From positions 205,667 through 269,666 of the forward strand of contig JAJVIF010000004.1 in assembly GCA_022072165.1 (NCBI GenBank): 64,000 nucleotides of DNA. Reading direction: 5' to 3'. The stretch comes from a bacterium. Its GTDB lineage: Bacteria; JAJVIF01. Under the pieces are notes generated by a model, which ran no database searches, was not told the origin of the DNA, and saw only the letters and a program-made list of their open reading frames with translations. A program made the position numbers and the translations under genes. Below, piece by piece: positions 8,126 to 63,936 of the stretch. How positions within the stretch are numbered: the first letter of the stretch is position 1; the number at the start of each line of letters is the position of its first letter.

Positions 8126-8137
8126 GAGGAACTCCTT

Positions 8138-47213: not shown

Positions 47214-50200
47214 ATGACTAAGCGCACAAGCCGTTCCGGCGCAGAACTCTTCGTGGTAGACAACAAAGCCCCCAACGCGACGGCGCGGTGGTATCTGCAG
47301 GAATGGTGCGCCCATTCCCGACAGATAGATGTCGCCACTGGCTTCTTTGAGATTGGAGGAATGCTAGCGTTGGAAGAAGCCTGGCAGCAAGTGGACCTGA
47401 TCCGGATTCTGATGGGCGATGAGATGACGAAGCGAACACGGACGGAGCTAGTCCGGGGTATCACCGCCCGGCTCGACGCCAGCCTGGAAGCGGTGAAAGA
47501 GAGTAATGTCTTTCTGGAGGGTGTACCTGCCATCCTGGAGGCCATTCGGAAAGGTCAACTCGATTGCCGGGTGTACCGTCGGGAAAAATTTCACGCGAAG
47601 GCCTACATCACCTATCCTCGCTCTGCGGCTTTTGTCGATTCGGCGCTGGTGGGATCGTCGAATCTGACACTCCCGGGGTTGACCCAGAATGTCGAACTCA
47701 ACGTCAGGGTCGTTGAACCTCAGGTCAGTGTCCTCCAGGAATGGTTCGAGGATCACTGGAAGGAAGGTGAGGATGTCAAGGAAGAGGTGCTGCAGACTAT
47801 TGAGCGGCACACCCGTGAGTACGCCCCCTTCCACATCTTTGGGAAGGCCCTACAGGAGTACTTTCGAACCCAAGAGCTGACCGCTGCGGAGTGGGAGCGT
47901 AAGCGATCTCGAATGTACCGGCAGCTGAGCAAATATCAGCAGGACGGGTACAGCGCGCTGATGAAAATCGCAGAGCAATACGGTGGTGCCTTCCTGTGCG
48001 ACGGGGTGGGGCTGGGCAAGACTTTCGTGGGATTAATGCTGATCGAGCGGCTCATCATGAAGGAGGGGAAACGGGTCGTGCTGTTTGCCCCAAAGGCAGC
48101 GGTGGATGGTGTCTGGAAGCCGCATATCGAGCGATACCTGCCGCATATTGGCGGAGTGAGCGGCTCGGAGGACTTTAGCCAGTTGTCGGTGTTCTCCCAC
48201 ACCGACTTCACCCGACGCGATCCGGCTTACAAAGCGCGTCTGGATCGCGTCAGTCGGCTTGCCGATGTCGTGCTCATCGATGAGGCCCATCAGTTCCGCA
48301 ATCAGGGACAGCGCGCGAACGAAGAGACTGGCCGCGACGACTCTCGGTACTACAAACTCTTTAGATTCCTCGCTGCAGGGGAATCGCCGAAGCAGTTGTT
48401 CATGCTAACCGCGACCCCGATCAACAACAGCCTCAACGACTTCCGCAACCTGATTCAACTCTTCACGCGCGAGGAGGATGCCTATTTCGGGAGCACGCTT
48501 GGCATCCACAACCTGCGCGCGCACTTCGCGGACCTCACTAAGCGGCTGAAGCAACAGCTCGAGGCGCAGAAACTCCAGGTCGATCCCGATCAACTCGGCG
48601 ACAGCATCGCCCTCGCCGCCGATCTCCTCGGCGAGTCGAAGACCTTCCAGGCGCTGGTCGTCCAGCGCAGCCGGGCCTACGTGCAGGAGAGCCAGAAGCT
48701 AGAAGGCACTGACCGGCCAGCCATTTTTCCGGAACGCAAAGAGCCGCAGGTGGCGAAGTACTCCATTCGAGCTACCTACGGCGATCTGCTTCAGGAGTTC
48801 AGCCAGGCCTGCTCCGGGGAAGAGCCGCTCTTTACGCTACCGCTGTACAAGCCACTGGACTACTTTGTTGGGGACAAGGCCAAGCTGGTCGAGACCCTCA
48901 GTGTGCCGACGCCCCCCGACAGCCTGTCAAAAGCCGAGAAGAACGAGTGGGCATTCGAATTCGCCCGCGGTCGACAGCGCCAGGTGGTCATCATGATCCG
49001 GACCGGGTCCCTCAAGCGATTTGAGAGTAGCGTGCAGGCCTTTGAGATTTCCTGCAATCGGCTCCTGCGAAAGCTACTCGCCTTCCTTGAAGTGCACTGC
49101 GAGCTGGAGACCGAACTGGCTACTCTCCGGCACTGGAAACAAACGAACTCCCGTGTGCTGGGGATGGCCCAGAATCGGGCGGGGTTCTTCTGGGATGAGG
49201 AGGCTGAGGCCGAGTATGAAGAGGATGTCGTTACCGAGGATCTGCGCAGCAAGATCGAAAAGCTTTCCCGAGCCGACTACAACCTCGCGGAGATGTTCAC
49301 CCATACTTACGCCGACCTCGACACGCTGGTGCACTTCCTCATCCGGCTCCAGCAGTTCAAGCCCGCGAACGACGACAAGCTCAATCGCCTCGAAGAGATC
49401 CTGAAGTTCCAGCGCGTCAAAGACGAGAAAATGCTCATTTTCACCGAGTTCGCTGACACCGCCGACTACCTCGGCGACCAGCTCAGCAGGCGCGGCTTTC
49501 CCGGTATCTTCGTTCTCCACAGCGGTAAGGGCGACAATCGCGCCGAAGTCATCCAGCGCTTCGCTCCCTACTACAACGGCACCTCTTCTGCGGACCTGAA
49601 GCGGAAGAAGCTCGAGGAGATCCAGATCCTCATCTCCACCGATGTCCTCTCTGAGGGTCTCAACCTTCAGGATGCCACGCGCATGATGAACTACGACATC
49701 CACTGGAACCCCGTACGCCTCATGCAGCGCATTGGTCGCGTAGACCGACGCCTCAACCTCGAGATTGAGGCGCGTCTCATCGCCGATCATCCCGCCCTCG
49801 AGGGCTCGCGACGCAAAGTCGAGTACTGGAACTTCCTTCCGCCAGAGGAGCTCAACGAGGTCCTCTCGCTCTATCGGCGTGTCACCAGCAAGACCCTCCT
49901 CATCTCCAAGACTCTGGGGATCGAGGGGAAGAAGCTCCTGACCCCCGAAGACGACTACGCTGCCCTCCGAGAGTTCAACCATCAGTACGAGGGCGAGCAG
50001 ACCTCCACCGAGAAGCTCAAACTCGAGTGGCAGGAACTGGTGCGCGATCACGTCGGACTCGAAGCGATCCTCGACCTGCTCCCCGGGTCCGTCTTCAGTG
50101 GCAAGAAGCGCGTGAAGAAGCAGAGCCGCGGCGTCTTCTTCTGCTTCGCCTTGCCCGGCTACGACCGGGTCCTGAAGGACTACACCTTCGAGGCCGGACG

Positions 50201-50435
50201 TGCCCACTGGCTGCTGTACGATCTCGACTCCGACGCTTTCATCGAGGACCCCACCCGCATCGCCGAGGTGATCCGCTGTACCGACGAAACCCCCCGGCAC
50301 TGCACGGAGGCGCGTCCCAAACTACTCGAACTCCGCAAGAAGGCCGAACAACGGCTGCGCAATTCCTACCTGCGCTCGCTGAACGCCCCGCTCACTGTCA
50401 AGCCCCAGCTCCGCTGCTGGATGGAGATCAGCTAA
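47214..50435 (+). CDS. PLD-domain SNF2-type helicase
   Basis: A 1073-residue protein. Residues about 10-190 form a phospholipase-D-like domain with H127-x-K129 (KFHAKAYITY) and GSSNLTLPG. Then a helicase: Walker A CDGVGLGKT (K269), DEAH at 356-359, LTATPINN (motif III), STDVLSEGLNLQDA (motif V) and MQRIGRVDRR (motif VI). A long C-terminal extension follows. One HKD motif per chain suits a dimeric PLD nuclease such as BfiI. Stop and next start overlap as TAATG, so it forms a module with the methyltransferase. DNA-translocating nuclease in restriction is inference. Confidence 0.85.
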   Translation: MTKRTSRSGAELFVVDNKAPNATARWYLQEWCAHSRQIDVATGFFEIGGMLALEEAWQQVDLIRILMGDEMTKRTRTELVRGITARLDASLEAVKESNVFLEGVPAILEAIRKGQLDCRVYRREKFHAKAYITYPRSAAFVDSALVGSSNLTLPGLTQNVELNVRVVEPQVSVLQEWFEDHWKEGEDVKEEVLQTIERHTREYAPFHIFGKALQEYFRTQELTAAEWERKRSRMYRQLSKYQQDGYSALMKIAEQYGGAFLCDGVGLGKTFVGLMLIERLIMKEGKRVVLFAPKAAVDGVWKPHIERYLPHIGGVSGSEDFSQLSVFSHTDFTRRDPAYKARLDRVSRLADVVLIDEAHQFRNQGQRANEETGRDDSRYYKLFRFLAAGESPKQLFMLTATPINNSLNDFRNLIQLFTREEDAYFGSTLGIHNLRAHFADLTKRLKQQLEAQKLQVDPDQLGDSIALAADLLGESKTFQALVVQRSRAYVQESQKLEGTDRPAIFPERKEPQVAKYSIRATYGDLLQEFSQACSGEEPLFTLPLYKPLDYFVGDKAKLVETLSVPTPPDSLSKAEKNEWAFEFARGRQRQVVIMIRTGSLKRFESSVQAFEISCNRLLRKLLAFLEVHCELETELATLRHWKQTNSRVLGMAQNRAGFFWDEEAEAEYEEDVVTEDLRSKIEKLSRADYNLAEMFTHTYADLDTLVHFLIRLQQFKPANDDKLNRLEEILKFQRVKDEKMLIFTEFADTADYLGDQLSRRGFPGIFVLHSGKGDNRAEVIQRFAPYYNGTSSADLKRKKLEEIQILISTDVLSEGLNLQDATRMMNYDIHWNPVRLMQRIGRVDRRLNLEIEARLIADHPALEGSRRKVEYWNFLPPEELNEVLSLYRRVTSKTLLISKTLGIEGKKLLTPEDDYAALREFNHQYEGEQTSTEKLKLEWQELVRDHVGLEAILDLLPGSVFSGKKRVKKQSRGVFFCFALPGYDRVLKDYTFEAGRAHWLLYDLDSDAFIEDPTRIAEVIRCTDETPRHCTEARPKLLELRKKAEQRLRNSYLRSLNAPLTVKPQLRCWMEIS

Positions 50436-53400
50436 TGGCCCCCACCGACCTCCAGGTCCGACTTGAAGCCGCCCTCACGACTGTCCACGACCAGCGCGCG
50501 TTCCTCGACCTCCTGCGCGATGTCCTCGAGTGGCCGCTGCCCGACGGGGCCGATGCCATCGCCGATGTCGCCTACGAATGGCCCCTCGCCGACCTCCGCG
50601 CCGAGAAGCTCCACGACAAGCTGGCGCAGAGCCATGTCTATCAGTTGGGGGCGCTCGCCGCGGACCAGCCCTGGGGTCTCTTTCTCGTCGAGTTCGCCGA
50701 TGCCCAGCCCTTTGATCGCGACCGCGGCCTCACCGGTCCCCTGCGCCGGCTGCTGGCAGGCTTGGTCGAGAGGCAACGACGCGCCGCGCACCTGCCTGCC
50801 TGGAAGCGCGAGCATCTGCTCTTCATCTGCACCTACAAGTACAAACACTTCCGGATCGCGTATTTCCGCGCGCCCAAAGATGGTCAGCGACAGCCGACCC
50901 TCGCGGCCTTCGGCTGGGGCCCGGACATCCCCGCCCGCACCGCGATCACCCACAACCTCGATAAACTCGTCTGGCCCGAGGACCCTGCTGAAGCCGACGC
51001 CTGGGTGAAGTCCTGGACCCAGAGCTTCAATGTCGAGAAGGTCACCGACCGCTTCTTCGATGACTATGTCGAGCTCTTCCGGCGCAACGAGACGATGGTC
51101 GCGACCGCCACTGGCTACGAGGGCGCCCTCTGTCGGCTCTACACCCAGGTGCTGATGAACCGGCTGATCTTCCTGCGCTTTGTCGAGCGCAAGGGCTGGC
51201 TGAAGTGGCAGGGCGATGACCAGTACCTGCAGGCGCTCTGGACCGACTACAACGCGACGCGCACTGCGAAGTCGAACTTCTATCGCGATCGCCTCACCCC
51301 GCTCTTCTTCCGCGCTCTTGCCCTGCCCGACGACCACCCCGACCGCGCGCCGGCCGATGTCGTCGGCCACATCCCGTTCATCAACGGCGGCCTCTTCGAT
51401 CATCACGTCCACGAGGGGCGCGACCTCGATGCCTTCCGCGGCGGCACCCTCCCCGATGGGATTTTTGCGTCGCTGCTGGACCCCGAAGACGGGCTGTTCT
51501 ACCGCTATAACTTCACCGTGATGGAATCGACGCCCCTCGCCATCGAGGTGGCGGTGGACCCGGAGATTCTCGGGCGCGTCTTCGAGGAGCTGATCACCAG
51601 CCGGCATGAGACCGGGTCGTACTACACCCCACGGCCCATCGTGAGCTTCATGTGCAAGGAGGCGCTCAAAGGCTTCCTCGCCCGACAGACGGAAGTGCCA
51701 GCCGACGCCCTCGCGCGACTGGTCGACCACCACGACGATGCCGGGCTTACCGATCGCATGGCGCAGGTGCCCGCGCTCCTGGAGGCCCTCGGCGCGGTCC
51801 GGGCAGTGGACCCCGCCTGCGGGTCCGGGGCGTATCTCCTCGGCCTCCTGCACGAACTCATCGACCTTTACCGGCTGCTGTATCAGGCGCAGGGGGAGCC
51901 GGGGGAATCGACCTACAAGCTCAAGCTGCAGATCATTTCGCAGTCGCTCTATGGGGTGGACCTGGACCCCGTAGCGACCAACATCGCGATGCTGCGGCTG
52001 TGGCTATCGCTGGCGGTGGAGGCGCCCCGCCCGTTGCCGCTGCCGAACCTGGACTTCAAGATCGAGACCGGCAACGCCGTGCTGGGGCCGAATCCGGAAC
52101 AGACCGAGAGTGTGTTCCTGTACGCGCCAGCCCGCGACCTCGCCGCCCGCAAGAAGCGCTACCTCACCGCGCATGGTGAGGAGAAGGCGCTGATCGGTGA
52201 GGAGATTCGCGAGCAGGAGCGCGCCCTGGCCGCACAGATTGAGGGGTTGTACGGCGCGGGGGTGATCGACTGGCGCGTGCAGTTCGCCGAAGTGATGCTG
52301 CATGAGTCCGGCGGCTTCGACATTGTCCTCGCTAATCCGCCCTATGAGCGTCAGGAGCTGCTGGTTGAGATCAAGCCGCAGCTGAAATCGGTCTATGGCG
52401 GGCTCTATCGAGGCACCGCCGATCTCTTGGTCTACTTCTACTACCGGGCGCTGGAATTGCTGCGGCCGGGGGGCATGCTCGCCTTCATCTCGTCGAACAA
52501 ATGGCTCAAGGCGGGCTATGGCGACAGGCTGCGTGAACACCTGCGCAAAGAAGCCCATGTCTGGTCCCTCACCGACTTCGGCGACTTGCCGGTGTTTGAG
52601 AATGCCACCGCCTATCCCGTCATTGTGATTGCCGAAAAGGACGGGAAAGGGATGCTAACGCTGCACACCGAGGTGCCGTCGCTGAACCCGCCCTATCCCG
52701 ACATCAAAGCGTTGCAGGCCGCGCATGGCACGAAACTGGGAGGGGACTCCTTCAAAGGGAGCGTCTGGACCCTGGCGGGCGGGGCCGATCTGAAGCGGCT
52801 GCAAAAAATGGAGCAGACCGGGATCCCGCTGGGGGAGTATGTCAACGGGCAGATTTTCCGTGGCGTCCTGACCGGACTCAACGAGGCCTTCGTCATTAAT
52901 GGGGCACGACGAGCCGAGCTGATTGCCCAGGACCCGAAAAGCGCTGAGCTCATCAAGCCGCTGATTCGGGGCCGGGACATCAAGCGGTGGCACGCGGCGA
53001 GCCGGGACCAGTGGCTGATCTTTACGCGCCGAGGGACCAACATCGATGCGTATCCTGCTGTCAAGAAACATCTGCTGCGCTGGAAGGCTGCGCTGACACC
53101 ACTCACACGGGAGCAAAGCGAGGCCAACCGTAGTTTGCTGACTGGAGAAAGGCGTCCAGGACGCAAGCCAGGTTCCTACAAATGGCATGAAATCCAGGAT
53201 GAAGTCGCGTACTACGAGGCGTTCGAGCGTCCGAAGATTGTGTTCACAGACATAGCCCCAACTTCGCAGTTCGCACGGGCTGCAGTTGGTACCTATCTGC
53301 TGAATACAGCGTATGTGATTCCTGGTGCGGATGACTACTTATTGGCTGCTCTAAACTCAGAATCAGTGCTGCAATGGTACATGAGTGCCAGTACTGCAGT

Positions 53401-53584
53401 GCGGGGTGGTTATCTAAGGTTCATACGCCAATATGTGGAGCGCATCCCAGTGCCCACCGCAGGAGAAGCAGAGAGAGCCAACCTTGCCGCGTTGTCACGG
53501 CAGTGCCTCGACGCCAAAGGGGTCGGGTGCGAGGCCTGGGAAGCCGAGATCAATGAGCGGGTCGCGGCCCTCTACGGACTCTGA
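50435..53584 (+). CDS. Eco57I-type adenine-specific DNA methyltransferase
   Basis: A 1049-residue protein. The N-terminal domain (about 1-210) is shared with the downstream gene at 53657. The MTase core has motif I DPACGSGAYLLG (from residue 459) and motif IV NPPY (634-637), which methylates adenine N6. The C-terminal target-recognition region includes IKPLIRGRDIKRW and ends with repeat-like TRD features. No PD-ExK nuclease motif is obvious, so cleavage could rest with the PLD-helicase partner. The TAATG start after the helicase excludes longer upstream frames. Confidence 0.88.
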   Translation: MAPTDLQVRLEAALTTVHDQRAFLDLLRDVLEWPLPDGADAIADVAYEWPLADLRAEKLHDKLAQSHVYQLGALAADQPWGLFLVEFADAQPFDRDRGLTGPLRRLLAGLVERQRRAAHLPAWKREHLLFICTYKYKHFRIAYFRAPKDGQRQPTLAAFGWGPDIPARTAITHNLDKLVWPEDPAEADAWVKSWTQSFNVEKVTDRFFDDYVELFRRNETMVATATGYEGALCRLYTQVLMNRLIFLRFVERKGWLKWQGDDQYLQALWTDYNATRTAKSNFYRDRLTPLFFRALALPDDHPDRAPADVVGHIPFINGGLFDHHVHEGRDLDAFRGGTLPDGIFASLLDPEDGLFYRYNFTVMESTPLAIEVAVDPEILGRVFEELITSRHETGSYYTPRPIVSFMCKEALKGFLARQTEVPADALARLVDHHDDAGLTDRMAQVPALLEALGAVRAVDPACGSGAYLLGLLHELIDLYRLLYQAQGEPGESTYKLKLQIISQSLYGVDLDPVATNIAMLRLWLSLAVEAPRPLPLPNLDFKIETGNAVLGPNPEQTESVFLYAPARDLAARKKRYLTAHGEEKALIGEEIREQERALAAQIEGLYGAGVIDWRVQFAEVMLHESGGFDIVLANPPYERQELLVEIKPQLKSVYGGLYRGTADLLVYFYYRALELLRPGGMLAFISSNKWLKAGYGDRLREHLRKEAHVWSLTDFGDLPVFENATAYPVIVIAEKDGKGMLTLHTEVPSLNPPYPDIKALQAAHGTKLGGDSFKGSVWTLAGGADLKRLQKMEQTGIPLGEYVNGQIFRGVLTGLNEAFVINGARRAELIAQDPKSAELIKPLIRGRDIKRWHAASRDQWLIFTRRGTNIDAYPAVKKHLLRWKAALTPLTREQSEANRSLLTGERRPGRKPGSYKWHEIQDEVAYYEAFERPKIVFTDIAPTSQFARAAVGTYLLNTAYVIPGADDYLLAALNSESVLQWYMSASTAVRGGYLRFIRQYVERIPVPTAGEAERANLAALSRQCLDAKGVGCEAWEAEINERVAALYGL

Positions 53585-53656: not shown

Positions 53657-54055
53657 ATGCCAGACCGGTGTCCGGAGAGTTTGTTGCGTCTGGAGGCGAC
53701 GGAGGCGTCGTTTCTGCAGGACTTGTTGCGGGGAGCGTTGGACTGGCCGATCCCGGCCGGGGTCCGGTCGCTGGAGGAGATCGCCTATCAGTGGGATCTG
53801 TCGGAGTTGCGGCTGGAGGACTTCGGGGTACGGTTGAAATCGCGGTTTGCCATGCAGCTCCCAGATCTCGAAGCGGAGCAGCCATTCACCGTGTTTATGA
53901 TGGAGGTCAGTGACTATATCAACCTCGATGCACGGACCGGATTGCATATGCTGTTGAACAAGTTTATCCGGGTGCTCCAAAGCAAGAGCCAGCGCCCAAC
54001 TCATTTAGTTTCCTGGAAGCCAGACGATCTGCTGCTGATTTTCACCAAGGACTAG
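53657..54055 (+). CDS. Stand-alone N-terminal domain of an Eco57I-type MTase (first part of a split gene)
   Basis: A 132-residue protein homologous to the N terminus of the preceding methyltransferase: SFLQDLLRGALDWPIP (18-33) against RAFLDLLRDVLEWPLP (21-36), and LVSWKPDDLLLIFT (117-130) against LPAWKREHLLFICT (120-133). It has a strong AGGAGG. It stops at a TAG (54053-54055), yet the homology goes on in the same frame in the next entry. The domain may bind DNA or partners; function unknown. Confidence 0.75.
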   Translation: MPDRCPESLLRLEATEASFLQDLLRGALDWPIPAGVRSLEEIAYQWDLSELRLEDFGVRLKSRFAMQLPDLEAEQPFTVFMMEVSDYINLDARTGLHMLLNKFIRVLQSKSQRPTHLVSWKPDDLLLIFTKD

Positions 54056-54073
54056 GAGTCGTACTCCTTCATC

Positions 54074-54832
54074 ATGTACGAACCCGATCCCCTCGGGGAA
54101 CGCGAGGCTGTGCTCCCTAAATTCAGCTGGCAGTTGCATCAGCGCCGGGAGTACATCTGGCGCGATCATCTCCGTTTTCTCTCCTGGCCGGAAGATCTGG
54201 ATCAATGGAAGGTCGCCTGGCGGCCCGGTTTTCACACGTTCCTCGAGCAGACGAGCATTTCCCCACATCGCCCATCTACTGGCAGTCCGCGCCGATCGCG
54301 CCGGCGCGAGGACGATTTGATGCGCGATGCAATCTTTGCGACAGACAGAGGGTTGGCATCGGGTGTTTTGCAAGAAGACCCGGACATGTGGGAATTGGCA
54401 CAAAGTTTAATCTTGGCTAATGCGAGTCTGAGCGAAAGCGATGATCCAGCCGATTGGGTAGGCCGTGCCACAGAGCGGCAAGTCGTGCGGGAAATCTTGC
54501 GGGGACGCTTCAGAGCGCCCTCAGGATCGGCGCTGGAACGCGCTCAAGCACTCACGGAACGCCGGGATGCAGCCAAGCGGCTTTTGCGTTGCCACGTTAA
54601 TGAAGAGCGGATGCAACGTGACCTCGCGATCGTGTTTGGCGAGACGAATTGGAACGAGACAGACTATGTCTCATTTCCGACAGCCGTGCGTGAATCCACC
54701 GGGGAAGACTCATGGCGCTGCTGGGAGTTAACCGACGTAGCTATCGAAGACCTGGTTCGACTTTTCCCTGATCTTGCGGGCTCCGCCGCAAACTGGTGGG
54801 CGCAGTCGTCTGATGCGGAAGCGCCTCAGTAA
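54074..54832 (+). CDS. Second part of the split gene: MTase-domain end plus unknown C-terminal region
   Basis: A 252-residue frame, same phase as the preceding one and separated by a single TAG plus six codons. Residues 1-60 continue the MTase N-terminal homology (LRFLSWPED, 33-41, against LDKLVWPED, 175-183 of the full MTase). Residues about 75-252 match nothing I know: helical, Arg/Glu-rich, with REILRGRFRAPSGSALERAQ. No ribosome site is obvious at 54074. Stop overlaps an ATG at 54832. Either a pseudogene or one 391-residue protein with amber readthrough. Confidence 0.6.
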   Translation: MYEPDPLGEREAVLPKFSWQLHQRREYIWRDHLRFLSWPEDLDQWKVAWRPGFHTFLEQTSISPHRPSTGSPRRSRRREDDLMRDAIFATDRGLASGVLQEDPDMWELAQSLILANASLSESDDPADWVGRATERQVVREILRGRFRAPSGSALERAQALTERRDAAKRLLRCHVNEERMQRDLAIVFGETNWNETDYVSFPTAVRESTGEDSWRCWELTDVAIEDLVRLFPDLAGSAANWWAQSSDAEAPQ

Positions 54833-54972
54833 TGATCCCAGCCCATCTCGGATTCGAAGGTGTCAGCGACCTTTGCGACATCTTCAATATGCGCCCGGAT
54901 CTCCACTTTGTTGACTGTCTTCACGATCTGGTCCTGCAACAGATGAAAATTTTGAAGACGACGGATCAGTTG

Positions 54973-55001
54973 TTGCGGTTTCGAGAAAGACCTGCTACAT
55001 T
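54973..55001 (+). promoter_or_regulatory. Putative promoter of the type III-B operon
   Basis: TTGCGG (54973-54978), exactly 17 nt, then TACATT (54996-55001). The leader to the cmr2 ATG at 55072 would be about 64 nt and includes GGAGG. Confidence 0.4.
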
Positions 55002-55071
55002 CGCGTCGCTTCGTCGAAACTCAGCACTGGAAGTCCGCTTCAGTCGCTTCATGATTACGCTGGAGGAAACG

Positions 55072-56847
55072 ATGCCTTCGTTTCAGTCACACGATAACCC
55101 TTCGCCGTCGACGGTTCGTGCGGCAAGGGCGGGATATCTGCTGGCGTTCTATCTGGGACCGGTGCAGTCCTACATCACAGCAGCGCGGACAGTCCGGGAC
55201 CTGTGGTCCGGGAGTGCCCTATTGTCCTGGCTCACCTGCCAGGCGATGCAACCGATCCTGAAGATGCCTGAGGCTGCCATAGTGCAGCCTTATCGCGAAT
55301 GGACAGACCCATCGTTTCAGGGGATGCCAAATCGCTTCCTTGCTGAACTCCCAGAGTCAGTCGACCCCCAGGAGGTCGCCAGCGCGTGCGAAGCCGCCGT
55401 CAGGGGGGCCTGGGAAGCACTGGCGGCGGAGGTTCATGCCTGGATTTCGAAGCAGGTACCGGGGGGCCAGTGGGATGCTGGCTGGAAGGAGCAACTCCGG
55501 GACTTTCTGGAAATCCGGGTGGCCTGGGTGCCGCTCTCTGCCGATCCACAAACGTGGGGGGATCGGGTGCAATCGGTGATGCAAGCCCTTGAAGCACAAC
55601 GGCAGATCGCGCACTGGCCCGGTCAGGGAATGGAGGGAGGGAATCGCGCGAAATGTACGTTGCTGGGGAGTTATGAACGGATGGGACCAGTTGATACGGA
55701 GCAAGGCAAGCAATTCTGGGAGCAGTTAGCGAGGCATGACTGGAACGGAGTCCGGGTCCGGCAGGGCGAAGCGCTGTGCGCGGTGTCATTGCTCAAGCGA
55801 TTCGCCGTTCCAGCAGTCCTGGGCGCCGAGCCCAGCATCAACAAGAGAGACCTGCGTTTTCCTGATACGGCCACGATCGCCGCTACTAAATGGCTGGAAC
55901 TGGCAAAGCTGGATCCTGGACGCATCAGGCGAGATTACGCTTCATGGAGCGGGCAGTGGCTGCACTGGCAGACGCCAAATGACGACAAGGACGATCCCTG
56001 TCCGGTCCAGGTCTGGGAGGAAATCCTCCGCGCAAGGAAGGAACATGGGGCAGCCCCAGCATATTTCGCCATTCTGAAGGCCGATGGCGACAAGTTGGGC
56101 AAGCGACTCCAGGACAGCCTCAAAACGGGTCGCGCATCCCTCCGCGATGTGACACTGCAGGTTGGCACTTTTATGCAGGGAGTCGCTGCAATCGTCGACG
56201 AGCATAACGGCTTCCTGATCTATGCCGGAGGCGATGATCTACTGGCCCTTCTCCCGGCCGATGAGGCGCTCGGGTGCGCTCAGGTGCTGCGCAGCAGCTT
56301 TCAGGAGATTGTCGGAGGAGATCTGTCCGCAGGTGTGGCGATTGTGCATTACAAGGAGGACCTGCGGGAGTCGCTCAACCTGTCGAGCGCTGCGCTCGAA
56401 CGGGCGAAAACCGAGGGGCGGAACGCCTGCGGACTCACTGCTGCCCGACGCTCTGGTGAAGTGAGTACAGTCGTCGCCTCCTGGGAGATCCTGCAGCAGA
56501 TTCAAGTTCTGGTGCACCGATTCAGCAAGGGCGTCGATGAATCCGACCGCTGGATCTATCAGCTTCGTAATGAAGTCACCACTCTGTCAGGGCAGGAAGA
56601 GAAGGCGCAGGATGCTGAAGTGAAACGACTGAGCGCGCGGAGCCGGGATGCGGCCACGCGCAGCGGGCGATCTGCAGACAATGCAGAATCCGCACTCGCG
56701 CTGCTGAATCAGATTCGTCAACGACATGCATCGCGCCCAGCGCGCAGCCAACAAGCCGATCCAGATACCAAGTCCGGCGCGCTGGAAGAATTCATCGCCT
56801 GCCTGCTGAGTGCCAGCTTTATTGCCCGTACCGGAGCCCCTCAATGA
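55072..56847 (+). CDS. cmr2: Cas10/Cmr2, type III-B large subunit
   Basis: The 591-residue signature subunit of the Cmr complex. It opens with LLAFYLGPVQSYITAARTVR, the standard start of Cmr2, so the HD nuclease domain is absent. The first palm has AYFAILKADGDKLGKRL. The second palm has an intact GGDD (nt 56227-56238), the cyclic oligoadenylate synthase site. The start at 55072 has GGAGG 7 nt upstream; the frame is open back to an ATG at 54832 (TAATG with the previous stop), but those 80 residues do not look like Cmr2. Overlaps cmr3 by ATGA. Confidence 0.92.
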   Translation: MPSFQSHDNPSPSTVRAARAGYLLAFYLGPVQSYITAARTVRDLWSGSALLSWLTCQAMQPILKMPEAAIVQPYREWTDPSFQGMPNRFLAELPESVDPQEVASACEAAVRGAWEALAAEVHAWISKQVPGGQWDAGWKEQLRDFLEIRVAWVPLSADPQTWGDRVQSVMQALEAQRQIAHWPGQGMEGGNRAKCTLLGSYERMGPVDTEQGKQFWEQLARHDWNGVRVRQGEALCAVSLLKRFAVPAVLGAEPSINKRDLRFPDTATIAATKWLELAKLDPGRIRRDYASWSGQWLHWQTPNDDKDDPCPVQVWEEILRARKEHGAAPAYFAILKADGDKLGKRLQDSLKTGRASLRDVTLQVGTFMQGVAAIVDEHNGFLIYAGGDDLLALLPADEALGCAQVLRSSFQEIVGGDLSAGVAIVHYKEDLRESLNLSSAALERAKTEGRNACGLTAARRSGEVSTVVASWEILQQIQVLVHRFSKGVDESDRWIYQLRNEVTTLSGQEEKAQDAEVKRLSARSRDAATRSGRSADNAESALALLNQIRQRHASRPARSQQADPDTKSGALEEFIACLLSASFIARTGAPQ

Positions 56848-57971
56848 CCAGCCATCAGCTCGGGATCCTGCTGGACCCCCTGGATGTCCTCATGTTTCGC
56901 GATGCCCGTCCCTTTGGGGTAGCGGGGTTTGCCCGGAGCGGACTTCCGCGTCCGGCCACACTCCTCGGAGCATTGCGCACCAGCCTGGGTATTCAGCTGG
57001 GCGTTGACTTTGAGAAGCTGGGAACTGCCATGAAGCGGGGTGCCAGCTTCGGTGAAGCGCTCACGGCGGATCAACCGGCTGGAGCTGCCAGCCTGGCAGA
57101 TATGGTTGTGCGGGGTCCGTGGCTGGCGCGTAGTTCGGCAGGACAGGTAGAGCCACTGGTGGCCTGCCCGGCAAATCTCAGGCGGGTCGAAAGCGAAGAC
57201 GGGTCAGCCAAGCTTATCCGGCTTGATCCCCAAAAGGACGCGTTGCCGGGCTGGCAGCCGCCGGAACCGGGGATGCTGCCGCTGTACAACGCAGAGGCTG
57301 GACAAAGCAAACGCGCCAAAGGCTTCCTGACGCTGGATGGTCTGCAGGCGTATCTCGCCGGGGACACACCTGCCCTGGAACATCTCGTATCTGCGAGTGA
57401 TCTCTATGGCGGGGATCGACGTGTCGGGATCAAAATCGACACCGACAGCCGCACCGCCGAAGATAGCTTTCTGTACAGCGCGGACTTCCTCGCCCTGAAG
57501 GCAGGGACGCAGGAAGCACCACGCGTCCGGTTTTATGCCGACCTGAGCGGACCCGAGTCGATCCTTGAGCTGTTGCGTGCGGATGCCTCCCCATTGCGCT
57601 GGGGAGGCGAAGGGCGCTACGCCGCCGTGACCTGTGTCGAGCCTGTCGTCTGGCCCCAGAGCGAGCCTACCCGGGAGAGTGCGGGCCGGGTGCTCCTGCT
57701 GACGACCGCCGCGCCATTCGATCAGGGCTGGAAACCTGCCGGCCTGGAATGCCAGTCTGCTGCGGTGGCGGGCTATGACGCCGTCTCCGGGTGGGACCTC
57801 GTCCGCAGCGAACCCCGCCCCAATCGCTTTGCTGCGCAGGCAGGAAGCGTTTTGTTCCTGAAGTCTGATTACCCACTCCCGGCCACGCTGGTCTCCGCTG
57901 AGGATGCCCAGGCGGGCTGGGGCACTTTTCTGCAGGGGAGCTTTTCCCTATGTCTGAACAGCGACTCTTGA
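56844..57971 (+). CDS. cmr3: Cmr3, type III-B RAMP subunit
   Basis: The 375-residue RAMP that caps the crRNA 5' handle and contacts Cmr2. The start motif LDPLDVLMFRDARPFG (10-25) is diagnostic, followed by ARSGLPRPATLLGALRTSLG. The end shows the Gly-rich RAMP elements. Its last 22 nt overlap cmr4. Confidence 0.92.
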   Translation: MTSHQLGILLDPLDVLMFRDARPFGVAGFARSGLPRPATLLGALRTSLGIQLGVDFEKLGTAMKRGASFGEALTADQPAGAASLADMVVRGPWLARSSAGQVEPLVACPANLRRVESEDGSAKLIRLDPQKDALPGWQPPEPGMLPLYNAEAGQSKRAKGFLTLDGLQAYLAGDTPALEHLVSASDLYGGDRRVGIKIDTDSRTAEDSFLYSADFLALKAGTQEAPRVRFYADLSGPESILELLRADASPLRWGGEGRYAAVTCVEPVVWPQSEPTRESAGRVLLLTTAAPFDQGWKPAGLECQSAAVAGYDAVSGWDLVRSEPRPNRFAAQAGSVLFLKSDYPLPATLVSAEDAQAGWGTFLQGSFSLCLNSDS

Positions 57972-58876
57972 TGCTCCATGCCCTGACCGGCATGCATCCG
58001 GGATCGGGCACCGCCCTGGGCGTGGTCGATCTGCCCGTCCAGCGTGAGCGACACACCCAGTGGCCGACCATCCCGGGGTCCTCGCTCAAGGGCGTCCTTC
58101 GGGCGGCCACCAGGCCGTCAGTGCTCGATGGCGACGCCAAAAGTCAGTGGGAGGCCGCCTTCGGGCCGGACACCAAAAACGCCAGCGACCACGCCGGTGC
58201 GCTCAGCCTGACCGACGCCCGACTCTTTGCGTTTCCGGTCAGGTCCCTGCGCGGCATCTTCGCCTGGGTCACCTGTCCGGAAGCTATCTACCGGCTGAAC
58301 TGTGATCTCCGGCTCTGCGGGATATCGGGCATCGATAGCGACCTGTCGCTGTTGCAGGACCGCTCCAAAGGCGATCCGGCCCTGCTGCCAGCAGACAGTC
58401 TCCTCCTGGTGGGCGAGCAGAAGGACCGGCTGGTCCTGGAAGAGTTTGAGTTCGTCCGGCGCGGTGACGCTCCTGCCATTCGGGACTGGGCCGCGGCTCA
58501 TTTTGGTGCGGCCGATCAGTCCCTGGCGGAGCGGATCACATCGCGACTGGTGGTGCTCAGCGACGATGACTTCACACACTTCGTCCGGCACGCCACCGAG
58601 GTGGTCGCCCGCATCGGGCTGAATTACGAAACCAAAACGGTCGCCTCCGGCGCGTTGTTCTATGAGGAGTACCTGCCTGCGGAGTGTCTGTTCTACTCCG
58701 TCGCTCTGGCGGAGGACAGCTACAAAAAGGACTGGAAAAGGTCCGCCAGCGACATGCTCAGTTATGTCGCTGACGCCCTCCTGCGGCAGCCGGTGCTGCA
58801 GATTGGTGGCAACAGCACCATCGGTAAGGGGCTCTGTCAGGCGCATCTCCTCAGCCAGGAGGTCCGCCGCTCATGA
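57950..58876 (+). CDS. cmr4: Cmr4, backbone RAMP and target RNA nuclease
   Basis: The 308-residue repeated backbone subunit that cuts target RNA at 6-nt intervals. The motif MHPGSGTALGVVDLPVQRE contains the catalytic Asp (D27), then WPTIPGSSLKGVLRAA. The C terminus has LQIGGNSTIGKGLCQ, the Gly-rich loop. GGGGAG lies 11 nt before the ATG. Confidence 0.94.
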   Translation: MSEQRLLMLHALTGMHPGSGTALGVVDLPVQRERHTQWPTIPGSSLKGVLRAATRPSVLDGDAKSQWEAAFGPDTKNASDHAGALSLTDARLFAFPVRSLRGIFAWVTCPEAIYRLNCDLRLCGISGIDSDLSLLQDRSKGDPALLPADSLLLVGEQKDRLVLEEFEFVRRGDAPAIRDWAAAHFGAADQSLAERITSRLVVLSDDDFTHFVRHATEVVARIGLNYETKTVASGALFYEEYLPAECLFYSVALAEDSYKKDWKRSASDMLSYVADALLRQPVLQIGGNSTIGKGLCQAHLLSQEVRRS

Positions 58877-59280
58877 CCACTGCCTCAGCGAAGAACGCCA
58901 CCCTGGATCAGCGACGTGCCGCCCATGCCTGGGAGACCGTGGCGACGGTAGCAGAAGCAAAGGGCGCAGCGGATGCGAAGGAAAAATTTAAGATCCACGC
59001 CAAGAAGCTGCCGGCACGGATCGTGACCTCCGGGCTCGGTCCGGCCCTCGCTTTTCTGAAAGCGAAGAAGTATGCCCCCGAGCTGCTGACTGGCCTCAAT
59101 ACCTGGATCGACAAGCAGATTCCCGCGAAGGACAAGCGGGAGATCGATCTGCTGCAGCGGGTGATCCACGGCGACTCCGACTTCCTGCGTCGGGCAACCG
59201 AAGAAGTCCTTCTTTACCTGCAGTGGCTGAATCGCTTTGCGGATGCCGAAATCCTGGACGAAGGAAGATCAGAGTCATGA
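58873..59280 (+). CDS. cmr5: Cmr5, small helical subunit
   Basis: The 135-residue all-alpha minor-filament subunit (Cas11 role). It starts with TLDQRRAAHAWETVATV and has KKLPARIVTSGLGPALAFL, as in the family. ATGA overlaps with cmr4 and with the following fusion gene. Confidence 0.92.
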   Translation: MTTASAKNATLDQRRAAHAWETVATVAEAKGAADAKEKFKIHAKKLPARIVTSGLGPALAFLKAKKYAPELLTGLNTWIDKQIPAKDKREIDLLQRVIHGDSDFLRRATEEVLLYLQWLNRFADAEILDEGRSES

Positions 59281-61310
59281 CTCCGGAGATTTGTCTGCCG
59301 AGGGAAACAGTCGATGCCATCAGGAAAACTTCTGATAAAGACCGCCATCCTGGGCTGGAGCTCGACAAGTTTTGCGCCCTGCCCAGCGATGAGCACGAGT
59401 GGGGCAAGTGGCAGGAGTCCCAGGGCCGGGTGCTGGACCGGGTTGCAGGACTCCCCGGCGATGCCGCGCTGCTGGACGCCCTGCTAAAGGATCGTCGTCG
59501 CATGCTCCAGGCCCTCAACGCCAGGTGCTGGACCGGCACCACGCAGGGACCCCTGACCCTCCATCTTGCCCGGGCAGGAGCGCTGGAAAACGCCGGCATT
59601 TGCCTTCATCCCCTCTATGGCTTCGTTTGGATTCCCGGGTCCGGTCTGAAAGGGATGACCCGGGCCTTTGCCGAGACGCTGACCGATGCCACCGCGGAGG
59701 ACCGCCAGCGCATCTTCGGCTGGAGCCCCGATGGCGATGACACCGGCGGGGCCGCCGGGTCAGTCGTCTTTCATGAAGCCTGGCCGACGCGCTGGCCGTC
59801 GCTGGTGCGGGACCTGAGCAACAGTCACCACGCGAAGTACTACACCGGGGAGCGGTCTGCACCGCCGGCGGACTATGAGGAGCCGATCCCGATTTCGTTC
59901 CTGTCCGTGCAATCGAAGACCGAGTTCGAGTTTGCCCTCTCCAGGCGGAGCACGGCGACCAGCGATACTGATCTGGCTCTGGCGCAGCAATGGCTCATCG
60001 GGGCTCTGGAGCATCTGGGGGTCGGGGCGAAGACTGCGGCGGGCTACGGCACCGTCATCTGTGACGACCAGCCGAGAACGCCAGTCTCGCCAGGCAGGCG
60101 GGAATTGCTGGATGTGGAACTGAAGCTGGTGACACCGGCTTTTCTGGCGGGAGCACAGCAGAGTGCCCAGGATTGTGATCTGCGGGTCCCGACATTGCGG
60201 GGGCAGTTGCGCTGGTGGTGGCGGACCATGCATGCGGGGCAGGTGGATGTCGAGACGCTGCGGATGATGGAAGCCGCCGTCTGGGGGGATACCGACCAGG
60301 GGAGTCCGGTGCGACTGACGCTGGAGCCGACAACAAAACGGCCTGCGGCGTTTAATCATGTGGAAATCGGCAAGCAAGTCAACCTGCCAGCTGGCCGTGA
60401 AATGACCGTGCGTGGCAACCGGATAACCCAGATGGGGCTGCATTATGTGAGCTATGGGATGGCCGAGATAAAAGGGAATCGACACTATCTGCCCCCCGGC
60501 AGTTGCTGGCGGCTTTCCCTGACGGTCCGCGACCAGCCCCGTCTCACCAAAAAGGTGAACGGCAGGGAGCAGGAGATACGCCCGACAATCCCTGCGGACC
60601 TGATTCGGGATCAGGTCGAAGCCGCTCTCTGGTTGCTCACGCACTTCGGCGGTGTGGGAGCCAAAAGCCGCAATGGCTTTGGATCGTTCGCGGACATCCC
60701 CGCACTGGACGCCGTTCTTTCTCTCGAGGAGTGCATGATCCGTGGCGCGAGGCTCCGTAAGAGCTTTCCAGCGTCCAGGCAAACCCCGGATCGGCGCGTC
60801 GCATCACTGGATCATCTGCAACGTATTGAAATCGAGACACACCTTGATGCCAGCAATCAATCCCATGTCTGGTTTGCGCTGGACAGACTCGGCTATCACA
60901 TGGGAGTTTTTGCTGACCGGTACTCCCGTACCGGCGACCCGAGCAGTCCACAACGGAAAGCTGCACTCGGACTTCCGCGTCACGGGGCAGATCAGAGTTT
61001 CAGCAAGACCTACCCACGTTGGGCCAAGCCCGTGCACTTCCATTGGGGAGTGACTTCTGACGGCAAGCTGAAGCTCTATATCACTGCGTTTCTCATCAGG
61101 CTGCCTGAACTTGACAAAAACAGGGAAATGATCGAACAGCTCCGGGAGTCCTTAGCGGAGCATCGAAACAGCCTCTTCAGGGTACCCGGGAATCTGGGAA
61201 GTGTGAGGGAAGTGGCGCCGCAGTCCACGCTCCGACCCCGCCCCCCCATGAGGGGCAGCGCTCCACCACCCCGTCGCGACAACCACGGCAACCGGGGGCC
61301 CCGCCGATGA
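59277..61310 (+). CDS. Cmr6-Cmr1 fusion protein
   Basis: A 677-residue single frame carrying two RAMPs. The N-terminal Cmr6 part (about 85-265) has YGFVWIPGSGLKGMTRA (114-130) and its Gly loop GVGAKTAAGYG (248-258). The C-terminal Cmr1 part starts at LKLVTPAFLAGA (282-293) with LRVPTLRGQLRWWWR (302-316) and a second loop GGVGAKSRNGFG (about 458-469). A basic Pro/Arg tail ends it. The start at 59277 is in an ATGA with cmr5. Both normally are separate genes; no separate cmr1 or cmr6 exists in the window, so the fusion probably supplies both 3'-end subunits of the complex. Confidence 0.88.
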   Translation: MTPEICLPRETVDAIRKTSDKDRHPGLELDKFCALPSDEHEWGKWQESQGRVLDRVAGLPGDAALLDALLKDRRRMLQALNARCWTGTTQGPLTLHLARAGALENAGICLHPLYGFVWIPGSGLKGMTRAFAETLTDATAEDRQRIFGWSPDGDDTGGAAGSVVFHEAWPTRWPSLVRDLSNSHHAKYYTGERSAPPADYEEPIPISFLSVQSKTEFEFALSRRSTATSDTDLALAQQWLIGALEHLGVGAKTAAGYGTVICDDQPRTPVSPGRRELLDVELKLVTPAFLAGAQQSAQDCDLRVPTLRGQLRWWWRTMHAGQVDVETLRMMEAAVWGDTDQGSPVRLTLEPTTKRPAAFNHVEIGKQVNLPAGREMTVRGNRITQMGLHYVSYGMAEIKGNRHYLPPGSCWRLSLTVRDQPRLTKKVNGREQEIRPTIPADLIRDQVEAALWLLTHFGGVGAKSRNGFGSFADIPALDAVLSLEECMIRGARLRKSFPASRQTPDRRVASLDHLQRIEIETHLDASNQSHVWFALDRLGYHMGVFADRYSRTGDPSSPQRKAALGLPRHGADQSFSKTYPRWAKPVHFHWGVTSDGKLKLYITAFLIRLPELDKNREMIEQLRESLAEHRNSLFRVPGNLGSVREVAPQSTLRPRPPMRGSAPPPRRDNHGNRGPRR

Positions 61311-62566
61311 CCGACACCACCAGTCCCCACCGGCTCCTCATCGCGACCGTCGGAAGCTCCCCCGGTCCGCTGGTGTTTACCTGCCAGCAATGGAAACCAG
61401 AACGGGTCCGCTTTCTGCCAACCGAGCAGACCACGGGCGTCATTGATGACATCCTGAACAGGCTGGCCAATGGCGATTTCAGGCTGCTGCCCGGCCAGTG
61501 TGACCGCACCATCCTGCAGGCTGAAAACTTTGAAAGCTGTGTCGCCAGGCTTCGACCGTTGACGCAGGAGGTGCTGGACTGGATGAGCCGGGGCAATGGC
61601 TTCGAAGTCATTCTGGACTTCACTGGTGGCACCAAATGCATGACCGCAGCCCTGGCAACGGTCTCCCGCTCCTGGCCTTGCACATACTCGTACATCGGAG
61701 GACTGGAGCGGGATAAAGCCGGAGTAGGAGCAGTGATCGATGGCAGAGAATCTGTCCACTATGTCAGCAGCCCCTGGCAAAGTCTGGGGTATCAATCCCT
61801 CGAAAACTGGCACCACCTGTTTAACCACCGCCAATATCAGGCAGCGCGTCTGGCACTGGAACCGGCCCGGAATCAGGCCCCGGATGCCCGGAAGGGCGAG
61901 TTCGCCGCCCTGCTGAATCTGACCGAAACCTACGAACTGTGGGACCGCTTTCGCCACAAGCAAGCCCTGGACCTCCTGGGCAAAGTCATCAGTCGGCGCA
62001 ACGACTTACAGGTCCGGCTGCGCCATGCCGATCAGCTTCCCCTGGAAGCGCATCTGGAGCGTCTGACCACTCTCCGGGACAATGCGCCTCCCTCCCGGGC
62101 GCATCTTGTGGACCTGATCGCCAATGCCGAACGGCGGGGCATCGAATTTCGGTATGACGATGCGGTTGCCCGCTTCTATCGCTTTTTCGAGGCCTGTGCC
62201 CAATTGCGTCTGGCGGAAGACCATGGCCGGCCAGAGACCGGAAAGCTCTTATGGGATGAACTCCCGACAGAGTTTCGCAGCCAGCTCCGGGTCTCTCCCA
62301 GGGATGACGGTACGGTCGCTCTGGGGCTGAAAAACACCTACAACCTGCTGGCAGCCCTTGGTGATCCACTGGGACCGATGTACGACACGCTGCACATGCA
62401 GGAAGTACTGCAGATCAGAAACGATTCAATCCTCGCCCATGGCTGGACACCAATCGATGAAAAGGGGTATCAGCGCCTGCGCCAGACCACCTGGGTGCTG
62501 GCCGACCTCCTCAGCATCACTCCGGCGGACCTCGTGGTCTTCCCCACCCTCGGCGAGCTGATCTGA
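61307..62566 (+). CDS. CARF-HEPN type III effector, TIGR02710-like
   Basis: A 419-residue protein. The N-terminal CARF-type Rossmann domain has LLIATVGSSPGPLVF (10-24) and ILDFTGGTKCMTAAL (about 102-116), where cyclic oligoadenylate binds. The C-terminal helical HEPN part has RNDSILAH, an Rx6H motif (R371, H378). It should be an RNase switched on by the signal made by Cmr2's GGDD site. ATGA overlap places it firmly within the cmr operon. Confidence 0.87.
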   Translation: MTDTTSPHRLLIATVGSSPGPLVFTCQQWKPERVRFLPTEQTTGVIDDILNRLANGDFRLLPGQCDRTILQAENFESCVARLRPLTQEVLDWMSRGNGFEVILDFTGGTKCMTAALATVSRSWPCTYSYIGGLERDKAGVGAVIDGRESVHYVSSPWQSLGYQSLENWHHLFNHRQYQAARLALEPARNQAPDARKGEFAALLNLTETYELWDRFRHKQALDLLGKVISRRNDLQVRLRHADQLPLEAHLERLTTLRDNAPPSRAHLVDLIANAERRGIEFRYDDAVARFYRFFEACAQLRLAEDHGRPETGKLLWDELPTEFRSQLRVSPRDDGTVALGLKNTYNLLAALGDPLGPMYDTLHMQEVLQIRNDSILAHGWTPIDEKGYQRLRQTTWVLADLLSITPADLVVFPTLGELI

Positions 62567-62575
62567 GGCCCGCTG

Positions 62576-63619
62576 ATGCCTGCGCTCTATGTCACCGAAC
62601 CGGGGGCGGTGGTGCGGGTCACCGGCGACAGTCTCCTGGTGACGCTGGATGCCGATCCCGACGGGGCAGGACCCCTGCCGGAACGACGTCGGACCCTGCT
62701 GGAGGCAGAACCTCATCGCCTGGAGCTGATCGCGCTGGTTGGCCGGACGCACATCACCGGCCCCGCCATCGAACTGGCACTGGACCGGGGGATCAGCGTC
62801 GCCTGGTTCAGCTGGAATGGCCGACTCCTGGGACGGCTGGTGCCGGCCGGAGCCAGTCAGGCCGACCTGCGCCTGCGCCAGTATGCGGACCACCAGGACG
62901 CTGCAGTCCGCTTCCGCCGGGCCCGGGAGACCGTCGCCGCCAAACTGGAGAATGGCATCCGGCTGCTGGAAGAGCTCCGGGCCAATGATGCCGACCGCCC
63001 GGTGTTTGGGGAGGCGCTGGCAGCCCTGCGGGACCACCGGTCGACTCTGCAGCAGGCTGAAGGGCCTGAGGCCCTCCTGGGGTATGAGGGACTGGCAGCG
63101 CGGGAGTACTTTCAGGGGTTGGGCGGGGGCTTCCGGCAGGAGATCACCTTTGCGGGGCGGCAGCGTCGCCCGCCCCCCGACCCCGCCAATGCGCTGTTGT
63201 CGTTCGGGTACACGCTCTTGACCCAGCGGCTGGCGGGCTGGATTGAAGCCCGGGGGCTGGACCCGGACCTGGGGTACTTCCATGAGGTGCGTCCGGGACG
63301 CCCGAGCCTGGCGCTGGACCTGCTGGAGGAGTTCCGGGCCCCCGTGGTGGACCGGCTGGTCCTGCGGGTCTGCAATCTGCGGATACTCCGGCCGGAGCAT
63401 TTTGAAGTCGATCCGGAAGACCCGGGGGGCGTGCAACTGACCCGGGCCGGGCTGAAGCTCTTCTTTAAGGAATGGGAAGCTTGCCTGGCCCGCCCCCTGA
63501 AGGACGCCACGACGCAGGAAGCGCTCCCGGTGCCCGCGCTCTGTCAGCGGCAAATCAACCATCTGGCGATGGCGCTGCGTCGTGGGGAGCCCTATCTCCC
63601 CTTTCTCTGGGGCAGGTAA
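62576..63619 (+). CDS. cas1: Cas1 integrase
   Basis: The 347-residue CRISPR spacer integrase. The N-terminal beta domain is followed by the helical catalytic lobe with the expected residues: E171 in GYEGLAAREYF, H236 in GYFHEVRPGRPSLALDL and E251 just after. The C-terminal RQINHLAMALRRGEPYLPF is standard. It works with Cas2; located 9 nt after the effector. Confidence 0.96.
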   Translation: MPALYVTEPGAVVRVTGDSLLVTLDADPDGAGPLPERRRTLLEAEPHRLELIALVGRTHITGPAIELALDRGISVAWFSWNGRLLGRLVPAGASQADLRLRQYADHQDAAVRFRRARETVAAKLENGIRLLEELRANDADRPVFGEALAALRDHRSTLQQAEGPEALLGYEGLAAREYFQGLGGGFRQEITFAGRQRRPPPDPANALLSFGYTLLTQRLAGWIEARGLDPDLGYFHEVRPGRPSLALDLLEEFRAPVVDRLVLRVCNLRILRPEHFEVDPEDPGGVQLTRAGLKLFFKEWEACLARPLKDATTQEALPVPALCQRQINHLAMALRRGEPYLPFLWGR

Positions 63620-63636
63620 ACCAGGGAGGTGGCGTG

Positions 63637-63936
63637 ATGCCAGCGACCCCGCTGCGTTATGTCTGCGCGTATGACATCCCGGACAACCGTCGCCGGCTGC
63701 GGGTGGCCCGGGTGCTGGAAGGGTATGGCGACCGGGTGCAACTCAGCGTCTTTGAAGCCGTCCTCTCACAGGAGCAGCTCGACACGCTGGTGACCGAAGT
63801 CACGGCGGAACTGGAGCTGGGGGAGGACGCCCTGACGATCTATCCACTCTGCGCGGCGTGCGCCGGGCGGATGCACCGCCTGGGCCGCGCCGGAGAAGGC
63901 GTGCCGCCGGGGAGCGAGGAGGTGTTCATTGTCTGA
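63637..63936 (+). CDS. cas2: Cas2
   Basis: A 99-residue ferredoxin-fold partner that dimerises and bridges two Cas1 dimers. It has YVCAYDIPDNRRRLRVARVL with the conserved Asp, then RVQLSVFEAVLS. The ATG at 63637 with GGGAGG upstream excludes the longer upstream frame, which overlaps cas1. Confidence 0.95.
   Translation: MPATPLRYVCAYDIPDNRRRLRVARVLEGYGDRVQLSVFEAVLSQEQLDTLVTEVTAELELGEDALTIYPLCAACAGRMHRLGRAGEGVPPGSEEVFIV

Follow-up and report, generated by a model that had tools for sequence, protein, structure and literature searches.

The window analysed here, a stretch of 64,000 nucleotides, contains near its end a type III-B CRISPR-Cas operon on the forward strand, with the gene order cas10 - cmr3 - cmr4 - cmr5 - cmr6/1 - csm6 - cas1 - cas2. 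The fifth gene (59277..61310, +) is a single open reading frame with an ATG start and no internal stop codon, encoding a protein of 677 residues. It overlaps both its neighbours: the ATG overlaps the stop codon of cmr5 at 59280 (ATGA), and its own stop codon overlaps the ATG of csm6 at 61307. ATGA overlaps are also found at the starts of cas10, cmr3 and cmr5. The NCBIfam profile of Cmr6, TIGR01898, matches residues 105-259 of the protein (E 4e-27, 95.6 bits, curated cut-off 51.1 bits), and the profile of Cmr1, TIGR01894, matches residues 282-471 (E 2e-13, 50.8 bits, curated cut-off 28.65 bits). These are the best matches and the sole ones above cut-off. Two distinct RAMP matches are also found with Pfam.

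The Cmr6 part (59589..60053, +) can be aligned to the solved Cmr6 chains 3x1l_H and 9l7c_I, and has a G-rich loop, GVGAKTAAGYG, at residues 248-258. The alignment of relatives places a linker, CDDQPRTPVS (residues 262-271; 60060..60089, +), between the halves; in the relatives it is 8 to 63 residues long. The Cmr1 part (60102..61196, +) contains the RWWWRTMHA motif (residues 312-320; 60210..60236, +), which is invariant in 27 aligned fusions. Similarity to the solved Cmr1 4w8x extends past the profile match towards residue ~605. The protein ends in a disordered basic tail (residues 641-677; 61197..61307, +) occupying the place of an OB-fold domain seen in 24 relatives.

An earlier note had interpreted this frame as a Cmr6-Cmr1 fusion within a III-B operon, pointing to the motifs WIPGSGLKG in the first half and LRGQLRWWWR in the second. 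Both motifs are indeed in the frame, and the interpretation is right, as both profiles score above cut-off in one frame and the neighbours are of the Cmr type. The note had also asked whether there might be just one RAMP domain, a missed stop codon between the halves, or separate cmr1 or cmr6 genes outside the window. Two domains are found by both Pfam and NCBIfam, the frame is uninterrupted, and the whole assembly has no such separate gene.

The neighbouring genes complete the set of subunits. The cas10 (cmr2) gene (54832..56847, +) was identified by TIGR02577 (156 bits, cut-off 79), the Pfam palm2 family and a motif scan. The Cas10 protein has the GGDD motif of the palm; profiles gave no match to an HD-domain family, and the motif scan found no HDP motif of the type seen in relatives. 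It is followed by cmr3 (56844..57971, +; TIGR01888 above cut-off), the backbone gene cmr4 (57950..58876, +; TIGR02580, 245 bits) and cmr5 (58873..59280, +; TIGR01881 above cut-off, Pfam Cas_Cmr5). By inspection, D27 of Cmr4 is at the expected position of the residue that cleaves target RNA. Downstream of the fusion are the gene of a Csm6-type CARF-HEPN effector (61307..62566, +; TIGR02710, 197 bits, with a Csm6 HEPN domain), cas1 (62576..63619, +; TIGR00287, 233 bits) and cas2 (63634..63936, +; TIGR01573 above cut-off). The Cas10 palm, Cmr3, Cmr4, Cmr5, Cmr6 and Cmr1 are thus all present above cut-off, as in a type III-B effector; the usual, though not strictly defining, form with separate cmr1 and cmr6 genes is not seen here. 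The GGDD-bearing, HD-less Cas10 and the adjoining CARF effector place the system among the HD-less signalling III-B systems.

Upstream of the operon, a gene encoding a PLD-type nuclease/SNF2 helicase (47214-50435) and a type IIG restriction-modification gene (50453-53584) adjoin the CRISPR locus and form a small defence island. Two adjoining frames immediately upstream of cas10 (53657-54832), which have no family match, resemble on inspection a broken copy of the N-terminal part of the type IIG gene at ~50453-53584, followed by unrelated sequence. The frame 54074-54832 was considered as a cas gene and rejected: no profile matches it, and none of the fusion loci contains a homologue. Further upstream, at 45356-45488, there are four tandem copies of a 27-nt unit.

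A CRISPR array starts 165 bp past the end of the window and runs to the end of the contig (C4). Its 37-nt repeat, GTCTCAATTACCGCCCCGTCAGTGAGGGGATTGAAAC, ending in ATTGAAAC, has 14 full copies on this contig. Seven further exact copies lie at the end of another contig (C1), followed by a CARF gene (TIGR02619/APE2256) and then by cas6. These two ends share an overlap of 166 bp, at 98% identity, within one CRISPR array. The contigs would therefore join inside a single array, with cas6 and the CARF gene most probably situated beyond it. The overlapping ends are the loci L039 (10165-11284) and L041 (8011-10759); an unnamed frame of 134 codons accompanies the APE2256-type CARF gene and cas6 on the far side. 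In L039 (11073-11190), one spacer is almost a repeat of the one before it, as would result from a duplication or from repeated uptake out of related targets.

The profiles were run against the entire assembly (3.26 Mb, 99.1% complete). There is one Cmr6 match, one Cmr1 match and one Cas10, and the three RAMP matches are cmr4 and the two halves of the fusion; no separate cmr1 or cmr6 gene was found in it. In a survey that covered one genome of the same order and four of the same phylum, no genome besides that of the window had Cmr6 or Cmr1.

When 85,000 species genomes were scanned with the window protein, 32 loci from other genomes emerged, encoding proteins 26-45% identical to it. They come from about ten phyla: Planctomycetota (most loci), Acidobacteriota, Latescibacterota, Binatota, Nitrospinota, Rhodothermota, Hydrogenedentota, Omnitrophota, Pseudomonadota and Sericytochromatia. 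No relatives were found among viral contigs and phages. The match lies in a single frame at all loci, save for contig ends, a frame change within the Cmr1 half of one protein (L027) and one decayed copy (L034). The latter is a remnant of 302 residues in a Symbiobacterium MAG (7869-8774) with no other cas gene nearby. Both profiles match all 27 aligned near-full-length proteins, that is, the window protein and 26 others. Leaving the remnant aside, the upstream neighbours are cas10-cmr3-cmr4-cmr5 wherever the contig reaches, and neither cmr1 nor cmr6 occurs as a separate gene at any fusion locus. The profile scores and the layout shared by the 32 relatives exclude chance, and the Cmr6-Cmr1 fusion in one frame is confirmed as real. 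The Cas10 proteins of the fusion clade differ in length: the N-terminal HDP motif is kept in L005, L006, L009, L011-L013 and others, and the proteins of the window, L008, L018, L025, L026 and L028 are roughly 200 residues shorter and have no HDP motif. It follows that the HD nuclease has been lost in part of the clade.

The frequency of the fusion was sampled in one phylum, using 246 evenly drawn Planctomycetota genomes. Cmr6 scored above cut-off in 13 of them. Cmr1 was in the same frame in three of the 13 (G015, G082, G188), a share biased upward since the draw was centred on G015, which carries locus L020; it was on the same contig but in a different frame in seven and on another contig in one, and was not found in the remaining two. 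The fused architecture is a minority in Planctomycetota, though no rarity. Three genomes (G009, G015, G017) have a fused system plus a separate Cmr1/Cmr6 pair elsewhere, which serves as a control that the searches tell both apart.

The AlphaFold model of the fusion, built from the 27-row alignment, has pLDDT 78.7 and pTM 0.80. When it is compared with known structures by Foldseek, chains of Cmr6 (9l7c_I, 3x1l_H) and Cmr1 (4w8x, 9l7c_A, 4l6u) come first. In the profile alignment, W313 and W314 correspond to W38 and W39 of Pyrococcus Cmr1 (4w8x), and R465 to R154, if the crystal chain has six extra N-terminal residues; this numbering fits all three positions alike. In Pyrococcus these residues bind the 3' region of the crRNA (PMC5965380). 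R465 is conserved in at least 90% of the 27 aligned fusions, and the two tryptophans belong to the invariant motif.

With a probability of about 90%, the fusion is a single-polypeptide version of the cap that the III-B effector has at the crRNA 3' end. The N-terminal Cmr6 module would be seated on the last backbone Cmr4, and, after a short linker, the C-terminal Cmr1 module would cradle the 3' end of the crRNA. The order of domains is the same as the order of Cmr6 and Cmr1 along the crRNA in known complexes. The crRNAs of the adjoining array would be cut by the Cas6 encoded beyond it, and their 5' handle held by Cas10-Cmr3. Cmr1 and Cmr6 are known to position the seed at the crRNA 3' end (PMC8376896), and the fused cap would place this region for target RNA. 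The target would then be cut by Cmr4, and Cas10 would signal to the neighbouring Csm6 via cyclic oligoadenylate. With a GGDD motif and no HD domain in Cas10, the system should act via such signalling together with Cmr4 cleavage. HD-less III-B systems of this kind occur in Thermus and Vibrio metoecus (PMC8376896, PMC8682760). What the fusion itself contributes is most likely simple, namely that the two subunits of the cap are invariably synthesised and assembled jointly. Judged from the sequence, the halves may also be parted by proteolysis after translation.

The earlier note ascribed two further consequences to the fusion, a fixed 1:1 stoichiometry and a fixed length of the complex. The former follows trivially, but changes little, as the separate subunits of Thermus are already 1:1 (PMC8376896). 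The latter is unsupported. Thermus forms complexes with Cmr4:Cmr5 ratios of 4:3, 3:2 and 2:1, each with one Cmr1 and one Cmr6, so that length varies with the Cmr4/Cmr5 backbone (PMC8376896); hence the backbone sets the length, and the fusion should not. A related possibility is that the fusion serves as a ruler for both complex and crRNA, given that the cap subunits are at the crRNA 3' end, where length is decided (PMC8376896). However, the length of Thermus crRNA tracks the number of Cmr4/Cmr5 segments (PMC8376896), and Cmr4 and Cmr5 are encoded by separate genes at every fusion locus long enough to show them, making a ruler improbable.

Another possibility is that an internal start yields free Cmr1 in addition to the long protein. 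In the window, there are in-frame TTG and GTG codons near the junction (residues 277, 280 and 285). However, none of them is preceded by a Shine-Dalgarno-like motif, 26 of the 27 aligned fusions lack a Shine-Dalgarno-bearing in-frame start near the junction, five have no candidate start there at all, and neither length nor sequence of the linker is conserved. Thus an internal start is quite improbable.

The protein might instead be a double-Cas7 subunit belonging to a different type III subtype, in the style of III-D or III-E/III-I. The lower Foldseek matches of the model are fused Cas7 proteins of III-D and III-E (Cas7-11), and one member of the family has a weak match to the III-I gRAMP profile. 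On the other hand, only the Cmr6 and Cmr1 profiles exceed their cut-offs, all neighbours are of the Cmr type (Cmr2, Cmr3, Cmr4, Cmr5), and among PDB sequences the fusion profile matches those of solved Cmr6 and Cmr1 chains best, so that this assignment is very improbable. Finally, joining of neighbouring genes by an assembly or sequencing error is practically out of the question: the frame change in L027 demonstrates that errors or decay occur in the family, but the junction recurs in 32 loci of independently assembled genomes, several on contigs megabases long, and no stop codon separates the halves of the window protein.

In 24 fusion proteins, including L005, L010, L011 and L020 and counting the second piece of the split L027, the Cmr1 half is followed by a C-terminal domain of ~75 residues with the consensus GxxVxAxLLEExTKKGGWxA...GLxGPI...PAD...GxxVxLxVxS...FRW. 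The window protein, L015 and L035 do not have it. The domain was found in no other frame among the loci examined, two examples scanned against Pfam gave no match, and its profile produced only chance matches to PDB sequences. Its model has five strands and is matched by Foldseek to OB folds of the S1, TRAM, IF1 and cold-shock types (best E 0.008, probability 1.00; no match below E 0.001). Since the Cmr6 of a solved Cmr complex (9arw, 9z7q) is named as having a cold-shock domain, binding of nucleic acid at this end of the complex is plausible.

In trees of the Cmr6 and Cmr1 halves, a branch separates the 27 fusions (support 99/99 and 85/99, respectively), placing them away from ten systems with separate genes, although the choice of relatives by similarity to the window protein favours such grouping. 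Both trees also show a distinct group of five single RAMP proteins from cyanobacteria, those of Synechocystis III-Bv and Microcystis among them. Common origin of the cyanobacterial and window-clade fusions as one clade is not rejected by the AU test (p 0.27 and 0.37). In the Cmr4 tree long branches meet, and the grouping of fusions is better resolved by the half-trees. Judged from these, the fusions of the window's clade share ancestry. Where the genes are separate, as at ten III-B loci on plasmids, cmr1 is first (after cmr3 in Thermus) and cmr6 is last; thus placing cmr1 behind cmr6 would have required a rearrangement, perhaps duplication of the operon in tandem followed by loss. A bolder scenario, possible though on balance doubtful, is that the relatives represent a broad undescribed non-cyanobacterial III-B lineage in about ten phyla, whose Cmr6-Cmr1-OB cap arose independently of the cyanobacterial fusion. 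The OB domain would then clamp the 3' tail of the crRNA or the incoming target, and the host of the window would have lost it again.

The fusion as such is known. The earlier note did not recognise it as a described standard architecture, which no longer holds as of 2025: the 'Cmr1-6' protein of type III-B cluster 4 of Microcystis aeruginosa FACHB-524 combines Cmr1 and Cmr6 domains (PMC11855584). That complex has been purified, and it gives about tenfold protection against phage T4 in E. coli (PMC11855584). As in the window, its other subunits are Cas10-Cmr3-Cmr4-Cmr5, and the window likewise has no separate cmr1. The comparison was made via the protein of Microcystis NIES-2481 (L046), whose Cmr6 and Cmr1 scores narrowly miss the cut-offs; in the half-trees it falls among cyanobacterial proteins, outside the clade of the window. 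A second similar case is CRISPR3 (III-Bv) on plasmid pSYSA of Synechocystis PCC 6803. Here cmr4 is followed by the gene of a 649-aa RAMP protein, and the locus has no separate cmr1. The annotation of this protein says no more than 'RAMP superfamily CRISPR-associated protein', and its scores are weak, 43 and 25 bits, neither reaching its cut-off. Both cyanobacterial proteins scanned have the order Cmr6 then Cmr1, with scores just below the cut-offs. Unlike the window, the Synechocystis system has a longer Cas10 and no recognisable Cmr5 in the place of that gene.

In the open literature, outside which most subscription journals lie, the Microcystis paper was the only one found with a Cmr6-Cmr1 fusion, and neither the window's clade nor the OB domain was found in the same scope. 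Literature matches linking CoCoNuT to 'type III-B' reflected unrelated naming. The PADLOC profile PDLC01212 (499 positions), named Cmr6, spans both halves of the window protein, and therefore curated sets already seem to hold fusions as Cmr6. Judged by the literature searched, what is new is the fusion clade outside the cyanobacteria, together with the C-terminal OB-fold domain in 24 of its members. Joining of the cap subunits is thus a stable architecture across about ten phyla, beyond a cyanobacterial oddity, and the finding points to a third domain at the crRNA 3' end, an OB fold for which the two examples scanned have no Pfam description. The fusion provides a natural test of the joint role of Cmr1 and Cmr6 at the seed end, and reconstitution may be easier with complexes of five subunits.

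The window shares its set of subunits, operon core and crRNA-contact residues of Cmr1 with the canonical III-B Cmr systems of Thermus thermophilus, Pyrococcus furiosus and Archaeoglobus, whereas in the latter cmr1 and cmr6 are separate and non-adjacent. The Vibrio metoecus system is also described with separate cmr1-6 genes (PMC8682760). The solved complex 9arw/9z7q ('CSD domain-containing protein Cmr6', 'Cmr1-MntA') resembles the fusion family in having extra domains on the cap subunits, and its Cmr6 is matched by the fusion profile at E 6e-42. However, this Cmr6 is separate, with the extra region at its N-terminus, and the name of the Cmr1 indicates fusion to a different partner. Identity of the window protein with gRAMP (Cas7-11) of III-E/III-I, which unites the Cas7 domains of the backbone and Cas11 in a single protein and lacks Cas10, was considered and rejected, as Cas10, Cmr4 and Cmr5 have separate genes. 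Fusion of neighbouring Cas7-group subunits and structural similarity are common to the window, the III-D Cas7 fusions and III-E Cas7-11. However, III-D and III-E fuse subunits of the backbone, whereas in the window only two cap subunits are fused, and Cas10, Cmr3, Cmr4 and Cmr5 are separate.
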